A stretch of 64,000 nt of DNA. Origin: Candidatus Thiodiazotropha endoloripes. Lineage in GTDB: Bacteria > Pseudomonadota > Gammaproteobacteria > Chromatiales > Chromatiaceae. The notes under the pieces were generated by a model, which was not told the origin of the DNA, made no database searches, and was given only the letters and a program-made list of their open reading frames with translations. The first letter of the stretch is position 1. Each line of letters begins with the position of its first letter. The translations under genes were made by a program, and so were the position numbers. Below are positions 4,589 through 15,593 of the stretch, piece by piece. The DNA is taken from the NCBI RefSeq assembly GCF_001708965.1, contig NZ_LVJW01000003.1, positions 620,001 to 684,000 on the forward strand, in the 5' to 3' direction.

Positions 4589-4611
4589 CCACTCAAGGGG
4601 AGTGGGTTTGC

Positions 4612-4636
4612 GGGGGTAAGGGAGATCCTTACCCCC
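4612..4636. terminator. hairpin between convergent genes
   Basis: A perfect 10-bp inverted repeat (GGGGGTAAGG, 5-base loop, CCTTACCCCC) sits between the hydroxylase gene (+) and the dsrC-like gene (-). No T-run follows on either strand, so it is at best a weak or Rho-assisted bidirectional terminator, or an mRNA 3' end stabiliser. Confidence 0.5.
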
Positions 4637-4665
4637 ATTAAGCTTCAGTCGCTTAGCTGATCGAC

Positions 4666-5010
4666 TTAATAGCCACCTTTACGCTTGGTTTCAGGCAGGC
4701 CGGCAATCTTACTTGCCTGCTTCGCCGGACCTTTGGGGAAGTGGATATAGAGTGCTTTCGCATCCACCTTGCCCTCATCGGTCCAGACACCTTTGAAGTG
4801 CTTGACCATATTACGTTCGTTAGGCTGATTGCCACTATTGTTAATATACTCATCGCGCAGAAAGTTGATGATTTCCCATGCCTTTTCAGACAGGTTTACA
4901 CCTTCCTGCTCAGCAATGGCCTTGGCCACATCTTCACTCCAGTCGGTCAGATTGACCAGATAACCGTTCGCATCAGCTTCGATTGTATTACCGTTTACTT
5001 CATATGACAT
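4666..5010 (-). CDS. DsrC/TusE-family protein without cysteines
   Basis: A 114-residue DsrC-fold protein. It keeps GYLVNLTDWSEDVA, then EGVNLSEKAWEIINFLRDEY and the C-terminal ..KQASKIAGLP arm, but it has no cysteine anywhere. The penultimate Cys and the Cys 11 residues before it, which carry sulfur or form the trisulfide in true DsrC, are replaced (Ser at the inner position; a Lys/Arg-rich KRKGGY end). Cys-less DsrC homologs have been called RspA and proposed to be regulatory; that name is from memory. It cannot do DsrC or TusE persulfide chemistry. An AGGAG site precedes the ATG. It is the last gene of the minus-strand group beside dsrA, 153 bp after the Cas6-like gene, so it may also have its own promoter. 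Confidence 0.88.
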   Translation of the reverse strand: MSYEVNGNTIEADANGYLVNLTDWSEDVAKAIAEQEGVNLSEKAWEIINFLRDEYINNSGNQPNERNMVKHFKGVWTDEGKVDAKALYIHFPKGPAKQASKIAGLPETKRKGGY

Positions 5011-5163
5011 TGATCTCTCCTAACTAAATCACGAGATACTCTATCCCGTTAAATCAAATTTTGCTCTTGGAATTCTCTGTTCCGGTCAGTGCCTGGATCC
5101 TCTCCCAGGATCGTGGTGTCTCGAGAGAAACCTGGCCAACCGGTGAATTTGCAGCCTGTAATA

Positions 5164-5823
5164 TTAAACAGTCTTGTGTGGATTAAACAAGCCAAAGCCG
5201 CGAGTACGCAGTGGGCCAAGTCCCTCCTCCTGCAGTGTGACGGCATCGTCCAGGGGTAGGCCCGCAACCATCAGGCTTTTTGTCATCAGTGTGCCATCCG
5301 GCGTATCAAACTGTTCGCCTTTACCACAAAGCACCTTTTTAAACCTCAACTTAAGCGCTTTAAGTTGTTCGACGGAGTGCTGCAGAAACTCATCTTCAGA
5401 CTGATCCTCAACAGCGATCAGATGGCGGCAATAGAGGGTGGTCGTCATAGCGAGCAGACGGGTATGGCTTTTTCCGATTTCCAGACTGTGGCCATCGATA
5501 TCCAGGGTCTGACCGGTAAGCGCCCCTGCTTCCTCAACTCGACGGTTGGGTAGGCGCAGTATCAGCGGTGTTCGTCTCGACAGATAGAGTAACTGGTCAC
5601 TGCCCGAGGGGCGCTCCCAGCCGTTACCCGAATCCGCCCCGTAGATCAGATGCAGGCCGGCATTGGGTTCATCGGCAAACCAGGGCAGCGCCTGCTGGAT
5701 CGCCTGCGACAGAGCCCAGGCGTGGTCGATGGGTAGGGTGGGGCACTTGATTTTGAACAGCAGATCCAGCACGTTGTCCGGGACTACAAACCGTTCCTCG
5801 TCTTCCTCTTCCTGCCAGAACAT
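5164..5823 (-). CDS. orphan Cas6/Cmx6-like RAMP protein
   Basis: A 219-residue protein that resembles the Cas6/Cmx6 family of type I-MYXAN CRISPR systems. The matching features are TLPIDHAWALSQAIQQALPW near the N-terminus, LILRLPNRRVEEAGALTGQ, and a C-terminal glycine-rich loop LQEEGLGPLRTRGFGLFNPHK typical of RAMP RNA-binding folds. Cas6 proteins cut CRISPR precursor RNA at hairpins. The window shows no CRISPR array, no cas1, and no other cas gene, so the substrate here is unknown. The start at 5823 is chosen because a GGAG site precedes it; the frame stays open further upstream but overlaps the previous gene. It begins 13 bp after the 236-residue gene, so the two are co-transcribed. Family call from pattern memory; function inferred. 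Confidence 0.75.
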   Translation of the reverse strand: MFWQEEEDEERFVVPDNVLDLLFKIKCPTLPIDHAWALSQAIQQALPWFADEPNAGLHLIYGADSGNGWERPSGSDQLLYLSRRTPLILRLPNRRVEEAGALTGQTLDIDGHSLEIGKSHTRLLAMTTTLYCRHLIAVEDQSEDEFLQHSVEQLKALKLRFKKVLCGKGEQFDTPDGTLMTKSLMVAGLPLDDAVTLQEEGLGPLRTRGFGLFNPHKTV

Positions 5824-5836
5824 ATTCAACTCCAGA

Positions 5837-6547
5837 TCAGGCTTCTGCGGGGATTTTGCGGCGCAGCGCTTCCCGGTCGTACCACCACTCCCCGTCAATG
5901 ATCACATCGAGTACCGTTGCCAGGCGGGGCAGGAATTTGGCGGGATCGTCCAGTTCCATGCGTTCCACCCAGAAATCGAAAATCTCCTGCTCTTCCACCT
6001 GGCTATGACGTCTGGCAACCTGGCCCATCAGCTGGTTGGTGAAAAACCTGAGGTCTTCCTGGGTCTGCCCCTCGGCACGCAGATCGACGATATAGCAGGC
6101 GGTTGCCGCTGCCACTGCAGCACCATCCGAGTTGTCCGGTGTTTCATCGATCAGATGCTGCAGCATGGCGACACTCAGCTCAGGATCGATGGGAAAGGTG
6201 ACCCCCAGCCAGATACCGTGAGCCAGCGCTTTGGCGCCATCTTCCTTCTCCGCCTGATAGAGCACATCACAGGCCTCCACCGCAGCCAGCCAGTGTTCTG
6301 ACGCAAGCGCCCGGTCAAACACGCTCTTGGCAATCTGCCAGGCTTCATCGTTGCGGTCCAGATCGAGCAGGATATAGCAGCTCTCAATCTCCAGTGAGAG
6401 GCGTTGCTCAGAGGCGCTGTCTCTATCCAGCTCCTCCAGCTGTTGACGGATCTCCTGCAGCTTTACCTCGAGAAGCTTGCTTGATTTGACAGCATCTTCA
6501 GCGCTTTCGCTGTCTCCGAGAAAGGTTTCTGATTCCAAATACTTCAC
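5837..6547 (-). CDS. hypothetical helical protein, 236 aa
   Basis: An acidic, largely helical soluble protein (LLEVKLQEIRQQLEELDRD is coiled-coil-like; then repeated helix pairs such as ESCYILLDLDRNDEAWQIA and WLAAVEACDVLYQAEKEDGAK that look TPR-like). No signal peptide, no recognised catalytic motif. It sits between the 58-residue gene and the Cas6-like gene with short gaps (48 and 13 bp) and so belongs to one operon with them. A role as partner or adaptor of the Cas6-like protein is possible but unsupported beyond position. Confidence 0.7.
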   Translation of the reverse strand: MKYLESETFLGDSESAEDAVKSSKLLEVKLQEIRQQLEELDRDSASEQRLSLEIESCYILLDLDRNDEAWQIAKSVFDRALASEHWLAAVEACDVLYQAEKEDGAKALAHGIWLGVTFPIDPELSVAMLQHLIDETPDNSDGAAVAAATACYIVDLRAEGQTQEDLRFFTNQLMGQVARRHSQVEEQEIFDFWVERMELDDPAKFLPRLATVLDVIIDGEWWYDREALRRKIPAEA

Positions 6548-6595
6548 AGATTTCTACCCTGAATAATATTTTACTTTGCCTATGCTTACCCGATA

Positions 6596-6772
6596 CTAGG
6601 TAAATGCCGCTTCAAGACGGTCTTCCCAATTCTCCGGGGTATCCGCAAAGGGTGGTTTGACGTCGATACGGAAGAATACCTCCGTTTTCGAACGCTCTTT
6701 GACAACACTCAACAGTTGCTCAAAATTCTCAACCTCTGGATGTTGCATCATGATCTCGCTCAGGTACAGCAT
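6596..6772 (-). CDS. small protein of 58 aa, first gene of the minus-strand operon
   Basis: A short frame beginning MLYLSEIMMQHPEVENFEQ and ending ENWEDRLEAAFT. The stop codon lies 48 bp ahead of the 236-residue gene. The codon pattern is protein-like (full of Glu, Val and Phe codons without rare ones) and the composition is globular, with a FFRIDVKPPF strand segment. An in-frame stop lies just upstream of the ATG, so this start is forced unless an internal one is used. The ribosome site is weak (GAG before an A-run). I do not recognise the family. It is the promoter-proximal gene of the unit that shares its upstream region with dsrA. Confidence 0.6.
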   Translation of the reverse strand: MLYLSEIMMQHPEVENFEQLLSVVKERSKTEVFFRIDVKPPFADTPENWEDRLEAAFT

Positions 6773-7225
6773 GTTTTTTTACTCATTTAAATACTTAGTA
6801 AAATGCTCGGATATTACTATTGAACAATATGCTTAAGTTGGGTTCAAGTCCTATCTGCAGTTATTGCGTGTAAATCTCACCCCTAAAGAAAAAATGGGAT
6901 ATTCACTTAATTGAGTTATTTGGGAATAGTTTATAACTCGCTGTGATTGCAGTAGTTATACTGCTAATGGTGTTTAAAAAATGGCTGTTGAACAGTGATT
7001 ATCTATCCCATTTGGGATAGATGTTTCTATCCCTGTCTCTCCCATCAGAAGGATATAGGTCTGCATTAGGAAACTCTAAACTTGCTGCCGAGTAGAAGCA
7101 GGCCCAGCCTGTGAGGTTAAGATTGCGGGTCGGTGGCCGGATTCTACAACTTGGTTTTCAGCCAAGAAAAATAGAATGTGTAAAATGCTGACGACCTCGA
7201 TAAACGACCATTGGGAGAAACAGTG
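6773..7225. promoter_or_regulatory. divergent promoter region of the Cas6-like operon and dsrA
   Basis: These 453 bp hold no gene. Moving from the minus-strand side, there is a small palindrome TATTG-AA-CAATA at 6818-6829, a TGGGATA half-site at 6895-6901, the strong inverted repeat at 7001-7022 and another CTATCCC half-site at 7027-7033. I cannot place -35/-10 boxes with confidence; TATACT at 6957-6962 is a possible -10 for dsrA. A GGGAGAA ribosome site precedes dsrA. Confidence 0.6.
7001..7022. promoter_or_regulatory. perfect inverted repeat, likely operator
   Basis: Arms ATCTATCCCA and TGGGATAGAT pair perfectly over 10 bp around a TT spacer, about 204 bp upstream of the dsrA start. Half-sites of the same sequence lie at 6895-6901 and 7027-7033. 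The arrangement suggests binding of a dimeric regulator. The regulator is not identifiable from this window. Confidence 0.6.
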
Positions 7226-8467
7226 ATGGCAAAACAGATGCATGATACCCCCATGCTTGATCAGCTGGAGAGTGGCCCATGGCCCTCATTCGTTACCGGC
7301 CTCAAGCGCCTCGCCAAAGACAACGATATGATGGTTGACCTGCTAGGTCAGCTGGAGACTTCTTACGAAACCCGCAAAGGCTACTGGAAAGGTGGTACTG
7401 TGGGCGTTATCGGCTACGGCGGTGGTATCATTCCCCGTTTTACCGAATTGAAAGGTGATGACGGCGTGGCTCTGTTCCCTGCCGCTGCAGAATTCCACAC
7501 CCTGCGTGTCATGCCACCTCCAGGCATGCACTATGACACCGACACCATTCGCAAGTTCTGCGATATCTGGGAAAAGTACGGTTCCGGCTTGATTGCTTTC
7601 CATGGTCAGTCTGGCGACATCATGTTCCAGGGTTGTACCACTGACAACGTTCAGCCTGCATTCGATGAGATCAACGAAATGGGTTTTGATCTCGGTGGTG
7701 CCGGTCCTGCGGTACGTACCGGTATGTCCTGCGTTGGTGCGGCACGTTGCGAAAACTCCTGCTTCGACGAGGGTCGTACCATGCGCATGCTGGTCAACAA
7801 CGCCCTTGACGATATGCACCGTCCGGCGCTGCCCTACAAGTTCAAATACAAAGTCTCCGGTTGCCCGAATGACTGCATGAACTCAGTACAGCGCGCTGAT
7901 CTGGCTACCATCGGTACCTGGCGCGATGACATGAAAGTCGATCAGGACGAAGTGAAAAGCTTCGTCGCTGAGAAAGGTCGCAAATATGTCATCGACAATG
8001 TGATCACCCGTTGCCCAACCCAGGCACTGTCATTGAATGATGACGACACCCTGGCGGTGGACAATCCCTCCTGTGTCCGTTGCATGCACTGCATCAACGT
8101 GATGAACAAAGCGCTCTCTCCCGGCGACGACAAAGGCGTTACCCTGCTGTGTGGCGGTAAGCGTACTCTGAAGATCGGCGACCTGATGGGTACTGTTATC
8201 GTGCCTTTCATGAAGCTTGAGTCTGATGAAGACTTTGAAACCCTGGAGGAGCTGGCTACCGAGATCCTCGACTTCTTCGCGGAGAATGCGCTGGAGCACG
8301 AGCGTACCGGTGAGATGATCGAGCGTATCGGCCTGGTCAACTTCCTCGAAGGCGTCGGCCTGGAGATCGATCCAAACATGATCGAGCGTCCGCGTATGAA
8401 TCCTTATGTCCGCATGGATGGTTGGGATGAAGAAGCGAGCAAGTGGGCTGAACGCAAAGCGCAATAA
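7226..8467 (+). CDS. dsrA: reverse dissimilatory sulfite reductase alpha subunit
   Basis: DsrA, 413 residues, the alpha subunit of the siroheme enzyme that in sulfur oxidisers runs in reverse, turning DsrC-bound sulfane sulfur into sulfite in the cytoplasm. It has the siroheme/[4Fe-4S] cysteines C-x5-C-x3-C from Cys169 and SGCPNDC at Cys213/217, and a ferredoxin-type insert with CVRCMHC (Cys283, 286, 289). The start at 7226 is chosen over an upstream TTG because a GGGAGAA site precedes it and the N-terminal HDTPMLDQLESGPWPSF matches the family. It opens the 13.8-kb dsr cluster. Codon use is strongly biased to GGT, CGT and CTG, as in highly expressed genes. Confidence 0.98.
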   Translation: MAKQMHDTPMLDQLESGPWPSFVTGLKRLAKDNDMMVDLLGQLETSYETRKGYWKGGTVGVIGYGGGIIPRFTELKGDDGVALFPAAAEFHTLRVMPPPGMHYDTDTIRKFCDIWEKYGSGLIAFHGQSGDIMFQGCTTDNVQPAFDEINEMGFDLGGAGPAVRTGMSCVGAARCENSCFDEGRTMRMLVNNALDDMHRPALPYKFKYKVSGCPNDCMNSVQRADLATIGTWRDDMKVDQDEVKSFVAEKGRKYVIDNVITRCPTQALSLNDDDTLAVDNPSCVRCMHCINVMNKALSPGDDKGVTLLCGGKRTLKIGDLMGTVIVPFMKLESDEDFETLEELATEILDFFAENALEHERTGEMIERIGLVNFLEGVGLEIDPNMIERPRMNPYVRMDGWDEEASKWAERKAQ

Positions 8468-8502
8468 TTCAGTTTTCTGCTGATTGACAGCAGGTTGAAA
8501 GG

Positions 8503-8529
8503 GGGGCATCGGGTTCGCCCGAATGCCCC
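8503..8529 (+). other. strong RNA hairpin between dsrA and dsrB
   Basis: GGGGCAT pairs with ATGCCCC and CGGG with CCCG around a TTCG loop, with one bulged A: about 11 bp, very GC-rich. No T-run follows, and dsrB begins 40 bp on, so it is not an ordinary terminator. A processing or stabilising element, or a partial attenuator, is more likely. Confidence 0.6.
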
Positions 8530-8568
8530 TTAAAACGAATCAATTACCCTATTTTTTTGGAGGTAGGT

Positions 8569-11200: not shown

Positions 11201-11215
11201 GAGACCCATACACTT

Positions 11216-11243
11216 GGCGGGTGAATGCTGACATTCACCCGCC
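11216..11243 (+). other. RNA hairpin after dsrC
   Basis: A perfect 11-bp stem (GGCGGGTGAAT with ATTCACCCGCC, 6-base loop) begins 16 bp after the dsrC stop. No T-run follows and dsrM starts 36 bp later. It fits a 3'-end stabiliser or processing site that lets dsrC mRNA accumulate above the downstream genes. Confidence 0.65.
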
Positions 11244-11278
11244 GGTGAATCAGACCAACACTTGAGGAACGCAGGAAC

Positions 11279-13646: not shown

Positions 13647-15593
13647 ATGGCAACTCCTAGCGAAGAGATGAAAAAAGACGTTACTTGGCGTCGTTTTGAA
13701 GACGGCGACAATGAGTGGGATGATTGGGGTGATAAGATCTTCCAGGAAGATACATCCTACAAGTGCCCTACCTATATCAACCGTACACCTCCCTGTCAGG
13801 GTGGCTGTCCGTCTGGTCACGACATCCGTGGCTGGCTGGCAATCGTACGTGAGCAGGAAAAACCTTCCGAAGGTATGGAGTGGGAACAGTATGCGTTTGA
13901 GCGTGCTGTCGAGGCCAACCCTTTTCCCTCTATGATGGGCCGTGTCTGCCCGGCACCCTGTCAGGATGGCTGTAACCGTAACGAGGTTGAAGACTTTGTC
14001 GGCATCAACTCGGTTGAGCAGTACATCGGTGATACCGCCATCGAGAAAGGTTTCAAATTCACCCCTGGCGCCGATACCGGTAAAAAAGTCGCGGTAATCG
14101 GTGGTGGTCCGGCTGGTATGGCTGCTGCCTTCCAGCTGCGTAAAATGGGTCACGGGGTTACCGTATTTGAAAAGGATCCGGAGCTTGGCGGTATGATGCG
14201 TTACGGCATCCCCAACTATCGTATTCCACGCGATAAGCTGCAGGCTGAGATTCAGCGTATTCTGGATATGGGCGTTGAAACCCGCGCAGGCGTCAAAGTC
14301 GGTTCCGATGTTCCGGTTGCCGAACTCGAAAAAGAGTACGATGCCATTCTTTGGGCTCTGGGTTGCCAGAATGGTCGCGATCTGCCGGTTGACGGCTGGG
14401 TCGGTACACCAAACTGTGTCTCCGGTGTCGCTTTCCTCAAGGCCTTCAACGAGGGTCGCATGAAGGTCACTGCGAAGAACGTGGTCTGTATCGGTGGTGG
14501 TGATACCTCGATCGACGTGATTTCTGTCGCCCGCCGTCTTGGTACCAATGCCGCGGCTGGTAATCCTGAAGATGTGGTTCTCGATATCGCAATGAATCAG
14601 GATGATGCACTTGCTGAAGGTGCTGAGCCTGCAGCTGCAACCCTGACCTCTCTGTTCACCAAGGACAAGATGTTTGCTGCACAGCACGAAATTCACGATG
14701 CACTGCATGAAGGCTGTGAGATTCTGGATGGTGTGATGCCTTTGGAAGTGATTCTCGGTGCTGATGGTCGTGCAACCGGACTGAAGGTTTGTGATTGTAC
14801 AATGGACGGTATGACCCCGGTTCCAACTGAAGGTACCGAACGTGTACTGGAAGCTGATCTGATCGTCTCCGCGATTGGTCAGAGTGCCGATATGGATGGT
14901 CTGGAGGATATGGCCAATGACCGCAACCTGATCGATGCGGACAAGTTCTATCAGGTACCCGGTAAAGAGGGTCACTTCGTCGCTGGTGATATCGTTCGTC
15001 CTCATCTGCTGACCACCGCGATTGGTCAGGCATCCATTGCCTGTGAAAGCATCGATGCCTATATGACTAAGAAAGCGATGGCCAAGCGTCCCAAGGTAGA
15101 TGTACACCACTTCGACCTGCTGGAGAAGCTGAAAGAGGCCGATATGGCGCCCGAAGCCTTCGATAAGAATGAAGGTGATCTGCGTGGTACCAACTCTGCG
15201 AAATTTGCTGTCCACAACTATGAAGATCGTTCCCGTCAGGAGGTTATTCCTGCCAACGATCTGTTCCTCGGCCACTTCGAATTCACACCGCGTCTGCTGC
15301 GTTCAGAAGATGTTCCTACTGCGGATGAAGTATTACACCACTTCAAAGAGCGTATGAATGGTCTTAACCAGGAACAGGTGCAGGAAGAGGCCAAACGATG
15401 CATGAGCTGCGGCATGTGTTTCGAGTGTGACAACTGCGTGGTTTTCTGTCCTCAGGATGCGGTATTCCGTGTCAAGCGCAATGAGACCACCACAGGACGT
15501 TATGTGGACACAGACTACAACAAGTGTATCGGTTGTCATGTTTGTACCGATGTCTGCCCAACTGGTTATATCCAAATGGGGTTAGGTGAATAG
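13647..15593 (+). CDS. dsrL: DsrL, NAD(P)H-linked iron-sulfur flavoprotein
   Basis: DsrL, 648 residues, related to the GltD small subunit of glutamate synthase. It has N-terminal cysteines (PPCQGGCPSGHDIRGW; CPAPCQDGCNR), an FAD motif GGGPAGMAAAFQLRKMGHG near residue 150, a second dinucleotide motif CIGGGDTSIDVISVARRLG, and a C-terminal ferredoxin pair CMSCGMCFECDNC and CIGCHVCTDVC. It binds DsrAB and couples it to NAD(P). An AGGAG site precedes the ATG. dsrJ follows 8 bp after the stop. A long antisense frame here is a shadow. Confidence 0.97.
   Translation: MATPSEEMKKDVTWRRFEDGDNEWDDWGDKIFQEDTSYKCPTYINRTPPCQGGCPSGHDIRGWLAIVREQEKPSEGMEWEQYAFERAVEANPFPSMMGRVCPAPCQDGCNRNEVEDFVGINSVEQYIGDTAIEKGFKFTPGADTGKKVAVIGGGPAGMAAAFQLRKMGHGVTVFEKDPELGGMMRYGIPNYRIPRDKLQAEIQRILDMGVETRAGVKVGSDVPVAELEKEYDAILWALGCQNGRDLPVDGWVGTPNCVSGVAFLKAFNEGRMKVTAKNVVCIGGGDTSIDVISVARRLGTNAAAGNPEDVVLDIAMNQDDALAEGAEPAAATLTSLFTKDKMFAAQHEIHDALHEGCEILDGVMPLEVILGADGRATGLKVCDCTMDGMTPVPTEGTERVLEADLIVSAIGQSADMDGLEDMANDRNLIDADKFYQVPGKEGHFVAGDIVRPHLLTTAIGQASIACESIDAYMTKKAMAKRPKVDVHHFDLLEKLKEADMAPEAFDKNEGDLRGTNSAKFAVHNYEDRSRQEVIPANDLFLGHFEFTPRLLRSEDVPTADEVLHHFKERMNGLNQEQVQEEAKRCMSCGMCFECDNCVVFCPQDAVFRVKRNETTTGRYVDTDYNKCIGCHVCTDVCPTGYIQMGLGE

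Follow-up and report, generated by a model that had tools for sequence, protein, structure and literature searches.

A Cas6-family protein with no CRISPR genes beside it accompanies the oxidative dsr genes of Gammaproteobacteria

Analysis of a 64,000-nt stretch of the Candidatus Thiodiazotropha endoloripes genome (contig NZ_LVJW01000003.1, positions 620,001 to 684,000; hereafter the window) led to a gene at 5164-5823 whose product belongs to the Cas6 family by profile and by fold, and which is inherited together with the oxidative (reverse) dsr genes of sulfur oxidation, with no genes of clustered regularly interspaced short palindromic repeats (CRISPR) systems beside it. This non-CRISPR Cas6 is almost certainly coupled functionally to Dsr. 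A standing dsr companion of this kind suggests that energy metabolism has co-opted a protein that handled RNA in immunity, and the explanation that we favour, with a probability of roughly 0.5, is that the domesticated Cas6 acts on a cellular RNA by binding and probably cleaving it, serving in the control of dsr together with a conserved 58-aa protein (p58) and a DsrC paralogue free of cysteines.

The resemblance to Cas6/Cmx6, proposed in an initial annotation of the window, was borne out at the level of both sequence and structure. In profile searches the protein matched PF09559 with 177.1 bits (cut-off 26.7, E-value = 4.9e-52) and the PADLOC Cas6 family (E-value = 1.1e-50), and its score against the cas6_cmx6 equivalog TIGR02807 was 98.7 bits, just under the cut-off of 98.85, which leaves it outside that equivalog. 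The remote sequence match was the Cas6 of a type I-B CRISPR-associated transposon (CAST; 8fcj, E-value = 1.8e-20). Its AlphaFold2 model (predicted local distance difference test 90.1, predicted template modelling score 0.86) had chains 8fcu_B and 8fcj_B, again type I-B CAST Cas6, as top Foldseek matches with a template modelling (TM) score of 0.81, and the titles of the 39 best PDB hits assign them to Cas6, Cas6-related, Cse3/Cas6e or Cascade chains.

The genome itself (4.46 Mb, 12 contigs, 99.95% complete) contains exactly one PF09559 gene. Genome-wide searches covered cas1, cas3, DevR/Cas7 and PF09559, and showed no cas1, no DevR/Cas7 and nothing above the cas3_core cut-off; six weaker cas3_core hits (22-49 bits) were taken for general helicases. 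The cas genes elsewhere in the genome that would have spoken against the initial annotation were thus not encountered among these families. Its statement that the 64 kb are devoid of CRISPR genes and arrays also held, since a scan with a simple array finder flagged nothing resembling an array either there or in the fetched dsr-linked loci. Over 177 sequences (2.4 Mb) the sole array beside cas genes was one of 16 copies on a control plasmid (L174). Two further candidates were set aside, one being a plain tandem repeat at the edge of L088 and the other a series of irregularly spaced repeats in L155 that was taken for repetitive coding sequence. Since the matching families bear CRISPR names (PF09559 is 'Cas6 Crispr'), the gene can be miscounted as a CRISPR remnant.

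Concerning its distribution, Cas6 follows dsrA closely. In a set of 56 genomes, made up of our own and of relatives at various distances, it is present in 38; the same 38 carry dsrA and the remaining 18 have neither. The dsrA of 35 of these 38 lies above the family cut-off and that of three (G023, G031, G033) is represented by fragments only, and weak dsrA hits of at most 56 bits in the 18 Cas6-less relatives were not counted. In 323 gammaproteobacterial genomes of at least 90% completeness, with Cas6 detected through alignment A1 and dsrA at E-value ≤ 1e-40, we found Cas6 in 107 and dsrA in 105. The two occur together in 102 genomes, Cas6 is by itself in five and dsrA in three, and 213 have neither. 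The gene is situated at a contig end in all three dsrA-only genomes (G130, G142, G220) and in four of the five Cas6-only ones (G095, G116, G146, G314), the fifth (G298) having it on a 7.4-kb contig. Additionally, the ratio of nonsynonymous to synonymous substitution rates (dN/dS) of Cas6 is 0.075-0.111 in five out of five close pairs, indicating purifying selection. Given this ratio, and 102 genomes with both genes against eight with one alone and 213 with neither, the association is not a matter of chance. A sample of the phylum (348 genomes, own genome included) contained dsrA in 37; Cas6 was found in all five of these that belong to the same class, the four besides our own with lower scores (124-163 bits), and in none of the 32 from other classes. 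Five of these 32 have a full oxidative dsr operon; in 13 further other-class genomes inspected, dsrAB is accompanied by a dsrL-like gene in 12 cases and by dsrEFH in one. Cas6 behaves like a core dsr gene, retained even at a genome size of about 1 Mb (five genomes of 1.0-1.1 Mb: G071, G160, G260, G288, G339). Our own genome has a second dsrAB pair (L140; G000:C3:2284471-2286728), with no other dsr genes, p58 or Cas6 in the 19 kb around it.

Cas6 and dsrA share a contig in 78 of the 102 genomes and lie at most 6 kb apart in 76 of these 78; the two exceptions, G129 and G320, retain both genes at distances of 42 and 518 kb, with p58 elsewhere again. We compared the neighbourhood in the best 80 (L052-L131) of at least 556 relatives obtained from a scan of 84,980 species genomes; because the best-scoring 80 alone were kept, close relatives are over-represented among them. 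By record title they are Gammaproteobacteria (Thiodiazotropha, Sedimenticola, tubeworm and Solemya symbionts, Thiomargarita, Thioploca and others), unspecified Proteobacteria and Muproteobacteria. We located p58 in 76 of these loci, the DsrC-like gene in 68, dsrA in 64 and a gene for a 236-aa protein (p236) in 44, and the recurring unit consists of p58, Cas6 and the cysteine-free DsrC paralogue. In all 64 loci that reach dsrA, Cas6 is oriented divergently from it, the starts being 1.3-3.0 kb apart. Eleven loci of at least 13 kb hold Cas6 without dsrA or dsrB on the locus, ten with Thiotrichales-type names and one from Arenicellales. The conservation of the neighbourhood in other sulfur oxidisers, for which the initial annotation had asked, is borne out. 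In the window, its four minus-strand open reading frames were confirmed (Table 1), as was the upstream region common to the unit and dsrA: the starts of p58 (6772) and dsrA (7211) face each other with 438 bp between them.

We were also able to recognize conserved elements of a putative Cas6 active site in 58 sequences (the window and, after omission of 23 close copies or truncated ones, 57 of the 80 loci). His34 is invariant in all of them and is preceded by Asp in 51 and Glu in seven. In the model it follows strand 1 directly and opens helix 1, the place given to the catalytic His of Cas6 by Makarova et al. (2011; PMC3150331), and on account of this position it is a putative catalytic residue. 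A Gly-rich loop GxGx5GxG is present in 56 of the 58, with K, R or H inside it in 55; the Cas6 consensus described in PMC3727216 includes such a loop, G-phi-G-x5-G-phi-G with a basic residue. In the mechanism that we propose, a Cas6 subfamily would have left CRISPR and joined the oxidative Dsr gene set of Gammaproteobacteria, where the retained active site would bind, and probably cut, a cellular RNA. The 58-aa protein would be its usual partner, and Cas6 and the cysteine-free DsrC paralogue, transcribed divergently from dsrA, would make up a control unit for dsr expression. That Cas6 acts on RNA to regulate dsr has, taken by itself, slightly less than an even chance. A more specific formulation is slightly more tentative still, namely that a domesticated Cas6 endoribonuclease, as near-obligate companion of oxidative Dsr, would process a dedicated cellular RNA with the help of a small partner, the cysteine-free DsrC being a sulfur-state sensor, and that a former CRISPR RNA processor would thereby regulate dsr.

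Several results weigh against the proposed mechanism. The hairpins after dsrA and dsrC that the initial annotation described are real, and structure at z < -2 was detected in gammaproteobacterial loci in 46 of 74 dsrA-dsrB gaps and 52 of 70 dsrC-dsrM gaps (a set that includes one place twice, L047 and L059, and three loci whose contigs end before Cas6 is visible, L141-L143); in divergent loci of the same class the values were two of three and two of four, respectively. As a pointer to the RNA target, however, they failed, because five full dsr operons of other classes without Cas6 have them as well (z < -2 in four of five dsrA-dsrB and three of five dsrC-dsrM gaps), and thus the hairpins say nothing about which RNA is the target. 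Among dsrAB-type loci of other classes, z was below -2 in three of 14. Neither did the dsr hairpins have a genome-specific sequence in common beyond the control. The within-genome likeness of the two hairpin regions was matched or exceeded in 36 of 2000 permutations (72 loci) and that of the control pair, dsrA-dsrB versus dsrK-dsrL, in one of 2000, and because the control pair is raised more than the hairpin pair, this likeness is no evidence. The hairpins were therefore rejected as Cas6 targets, and are more likely general mRNA-stabilising or mRNA-processing elements. The gap between Cas6 and the DsrC-like gene and the p58 leader have no consistent structure (median z of -0.31 and -0.29), and Rfam gave nothing at gathering scores in the window. 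Concerning the protein, the degree to which the Cas6 His is conserved is disputed by a referee whose report appears in PMC3150331, and the DH pair is missing in one of four divergent dsr-linked members of the same class (L147). The 58 sequences are acidic (median isoelectric point (pI) 5.9, range 4.9-8.9; median net charge -5), and RNA binding may therefore be weak or lost; the proteins of L153 and L154, which come from small genomes, are basic. Lastly, cas1 is somewhat commoner in the relatives that carry Cas6 (17 of 38) than in those that do not (3 of 18). Recruitment of a Cas6-fold protein to process a cellular hairpin RNA, possibly dsr mRNA, as initially suggested, was accordingly upheld in part: Cas6 without cas genes and the conserved unit divergent from dsrA support it, while the hairpins as target fell away and the acidic charge speaks against simple RNA binding of the CRISPR kind.

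The acidic charge is also where the main rival begins, a less likely one in our judgement, in which the Cas6 fold was kept, its RNA chemistry was lost and the protein works through protein contacts, for example as a Dsr assembly or regulatory factor with p58 and the cysteine-free DsrC. Six cyanobacterial Cas6/Cmx6 relatives are basic (pI 9.3-9.6), seven residues invariant in the 58 sequences (W3, W48, G68, W69, R71, K163, K217) are not found in these six, and the hairpin, operon-structure and likeness tests yielded no RNA target, all of which would suit such a role; a purely structural one, however, needs neither His34 nor the Gly-rich loop with its basic residue, and both are kept in nearly all members. 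It is improbable that the substrate of Cas6 is instead a stable RNA such as tRNA, in a modification linked to sulfur relay. The thought derives from TusE, a DsrC relative serving tRNA thiolation, from the kinship of TusBCD-TusE with DsrEFH-DsrC (PMC3397948) and from the DsrC/TusE-family neighbour in 68 of the 80 loci. Yet of 90 distinct loci, 80 have a neighbour devoid of cysteine and 10 a neighbour with a single one, and a C-terminal cysteine occurs in none of 94 loci, so the neighbour lacks the two C-terminal cysteines of a functional DsrC sulfur carrier and cannot relay sulfur as TusE does; moreover, the distribution of Cas6 follows dsrA.

The higher frequency of cas1 among carriers would be expected if Cas6 acted in trans on the arrays of cas6-less CRISPR systems elsewhere in the genome. 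This is very improbable, given that cas1 is missing in 21 of the 38 carriers, that the own genome is without cas1, DevR and above-cut-off cas3, that 102 of the 110 genomes with Cas6 or dsrA have both and that the array scan met an array beside cas genes in the control plasmid alone. Least credible of all is hitchhiking, by which Cas6 came to lie near dsrA by chance or shared transfer, with no functional link. Distances between Cas6 proteins do correlate with those between DsrA proteins over 64 loci (Spearman 0.68, compared with 0.85 for DsrA-DsrB), as shared inheritance would give, but Cas6 is kept where it is unlinked (G129, G320) and in genomes of 1.0-1.1 Mb, and its dN/dS is about 0.1.

Table 1. 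Coordinates of the Cas6 unit and of the adjoining dsr features in the window.
Feature	Position	Strand	Remarks
DsrC paralogue without cysteines, 114 aa	4666..5010	-	C-terminal tail RKGGY
Cas6-family protein, 219 aa	5164..5823	-	putative catalytic His34; Gly-rich loop GLGPLRTRGFG at 201-211
p236, 236-aa all-helical protein	5837..6547	-	GTG start; found in 44/80 loci
p58, conserved 58-aa protein	6596..6772	-	found in 76/80 Cas6 loci
Divergent intergenic region p58/dsrA, 438 bp	6773..7210	.	shared upstream region
dsrA	7211..8467	+	listed start TTG 7211; in-frame ATG at 7226
Strong hairpin between dsrA and dsrB	8501..8531 (about)	+	same position in many loci, with differing stem sequences; also in Cas6-less operons
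Strong hairpin between dsrC and dsrM	11211..11247 (about)	+	as for the dsrA-dsrB hairpin

Neither p58 nor p236 matched any Pfam, NCBIfam or PADLOC family at E-value ≤ 10. The model of p236 is all-helical and resembles tetratricopeptide repeats, and an assignment of function by fold was abandoned, as no PDB match reached E-value ≤ 0.001. A TauD-type dioxygenase lies within 4 kb of Cas6 in 39 of the 80 loci, one TauD being confirmed by Pfam, and the 64 loci with dsrA have p236, TauD or both in 28, 23 and 13 cases. The small protein was found in 96 of the 323 same-class genomes and in four of 36 dsrA-bearing entries. As a partner of Cas6 exclusively it was rejected in part: four other-class genomes have TauD and p58 beside dsrA without Cas6, and four divergent same-class genomes (G524, G542, G558, G647) have Cas6 with no p58 match. 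It is a dsr-linked protein family of its own. In the former four (L135 at 14255-15346, L137, L138 and L139), presumably Alphaproteobacteria, the TauD-type dioxygenase and the p58 homologue are divergent from the dsrA of a full dsr operon; L137, L138 and L139 have a gene further on that was read by eye as siroheme synthase.

The DsrC homologue at 4666-5010 has no cysteine in its translation, as the initial annotation had noted; cysteine-free DsrC goes under the label 'RspA'. In place of the active cysteines its tail is RKGGY in 86 of 90 distinct loci and GKGGY in four; the corresponding ending of the true DsrC is GCV or GCI in 79 of 80. The 100 nt 3' of the gene (about 4590-4665 in the window) are often structured, with a median z of -1.84 and 41 of 90 loci below -2, and are perhaps a terminator. 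In transcriptomes of Ca. Thiodiazotropha endolucinida, PMC13137333 (Table 1) lists a DsrC/TusE gene, peg.3252, among highly expressed genes. It is 11 numbers away from another DsrC/TusE gene, peg.3241, which is itself beside tusB (peg.3242), and judging from this gene order peg.3252 may be the DsrC paralogue of the Cas6 operon.

No paper linking Cas6 with dsr appeared among the matches listed in the literature searches, which were judged by title and start of abstract and left subscription papers mostly outside. The main texts of PMC11406059, PMC10504309, PMC11267869 and PMC13137333 mention neither Cas6 nor CRISPR, and literature in which dsrA, Cas6 and sulfur oxidation occur together treats Cas6 and dsr apart in its accessible portions. 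If Cas6 does act on RNA here, a CRISPR RNA processor would have a permanent role in a globally important metabolic pathway, and the oxidative dsr system would gain a specific candidate regulator.

Compared with known regulators, the unit recalls DsrR, which is likewise an accessory protein tied to oxidative Dsr and its regulation, although DsrR is IscA-like and belongs to another family (PMC11406059). PMC5944118 cites binding of Allochromatium vinosum DsrC to DNA upstream of the dsr cluster, which by analogy may be a regulatory hint for the dsr-linked unit; the paralogue adjoining Cas6, however, is without C-terminal cysteines. Concerning Cas6 proteins, the six cyanobacterial Cas6/Cmx6 cluster together with a support of 100/99 in a tree of 17 rows, and the dsr-linked proteins stand across this well-supported branch. 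Annotated cas neighbours lie beside five of the six. The Cas6/Cmx6 of Gloeobacter morelensis plasmid pGMOR1 (L173, 4977-5768) is the one annotated cas gene in its 5-kb surroundings and is found among hypothetical genes, with a gene of the 3'-phosphoadenosine-5'-phosphosulfate (PAPS) reductase family two genes away; it is perhaps another non-CRISPR use of Cas6. PfuCas6 and Cas6e, of other type I/III systems, process the repeat RNA of CRISPR arrays (PMC3727216) and have the fold and the position of the catalytic His in common with the dsr-linked protein at about 10-14% identity. The type I-MYXAN/I-B Cas6/Cmx6 proteins (PF09559, TIGR02807; 8fcj/8fcu) are alike in profile, fold and Gly-rich loop, and the DH motif is shared with the six cyanobacterial plasmid proteins, where the 8fcj chain aligns DN. 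The dsr-linked Cas6 differs from them in its dsr neighbourhood, its acidic charge, its extra N-terminal and NGW motifs and a genome without cas1, DevR or above-cut-off cas3.

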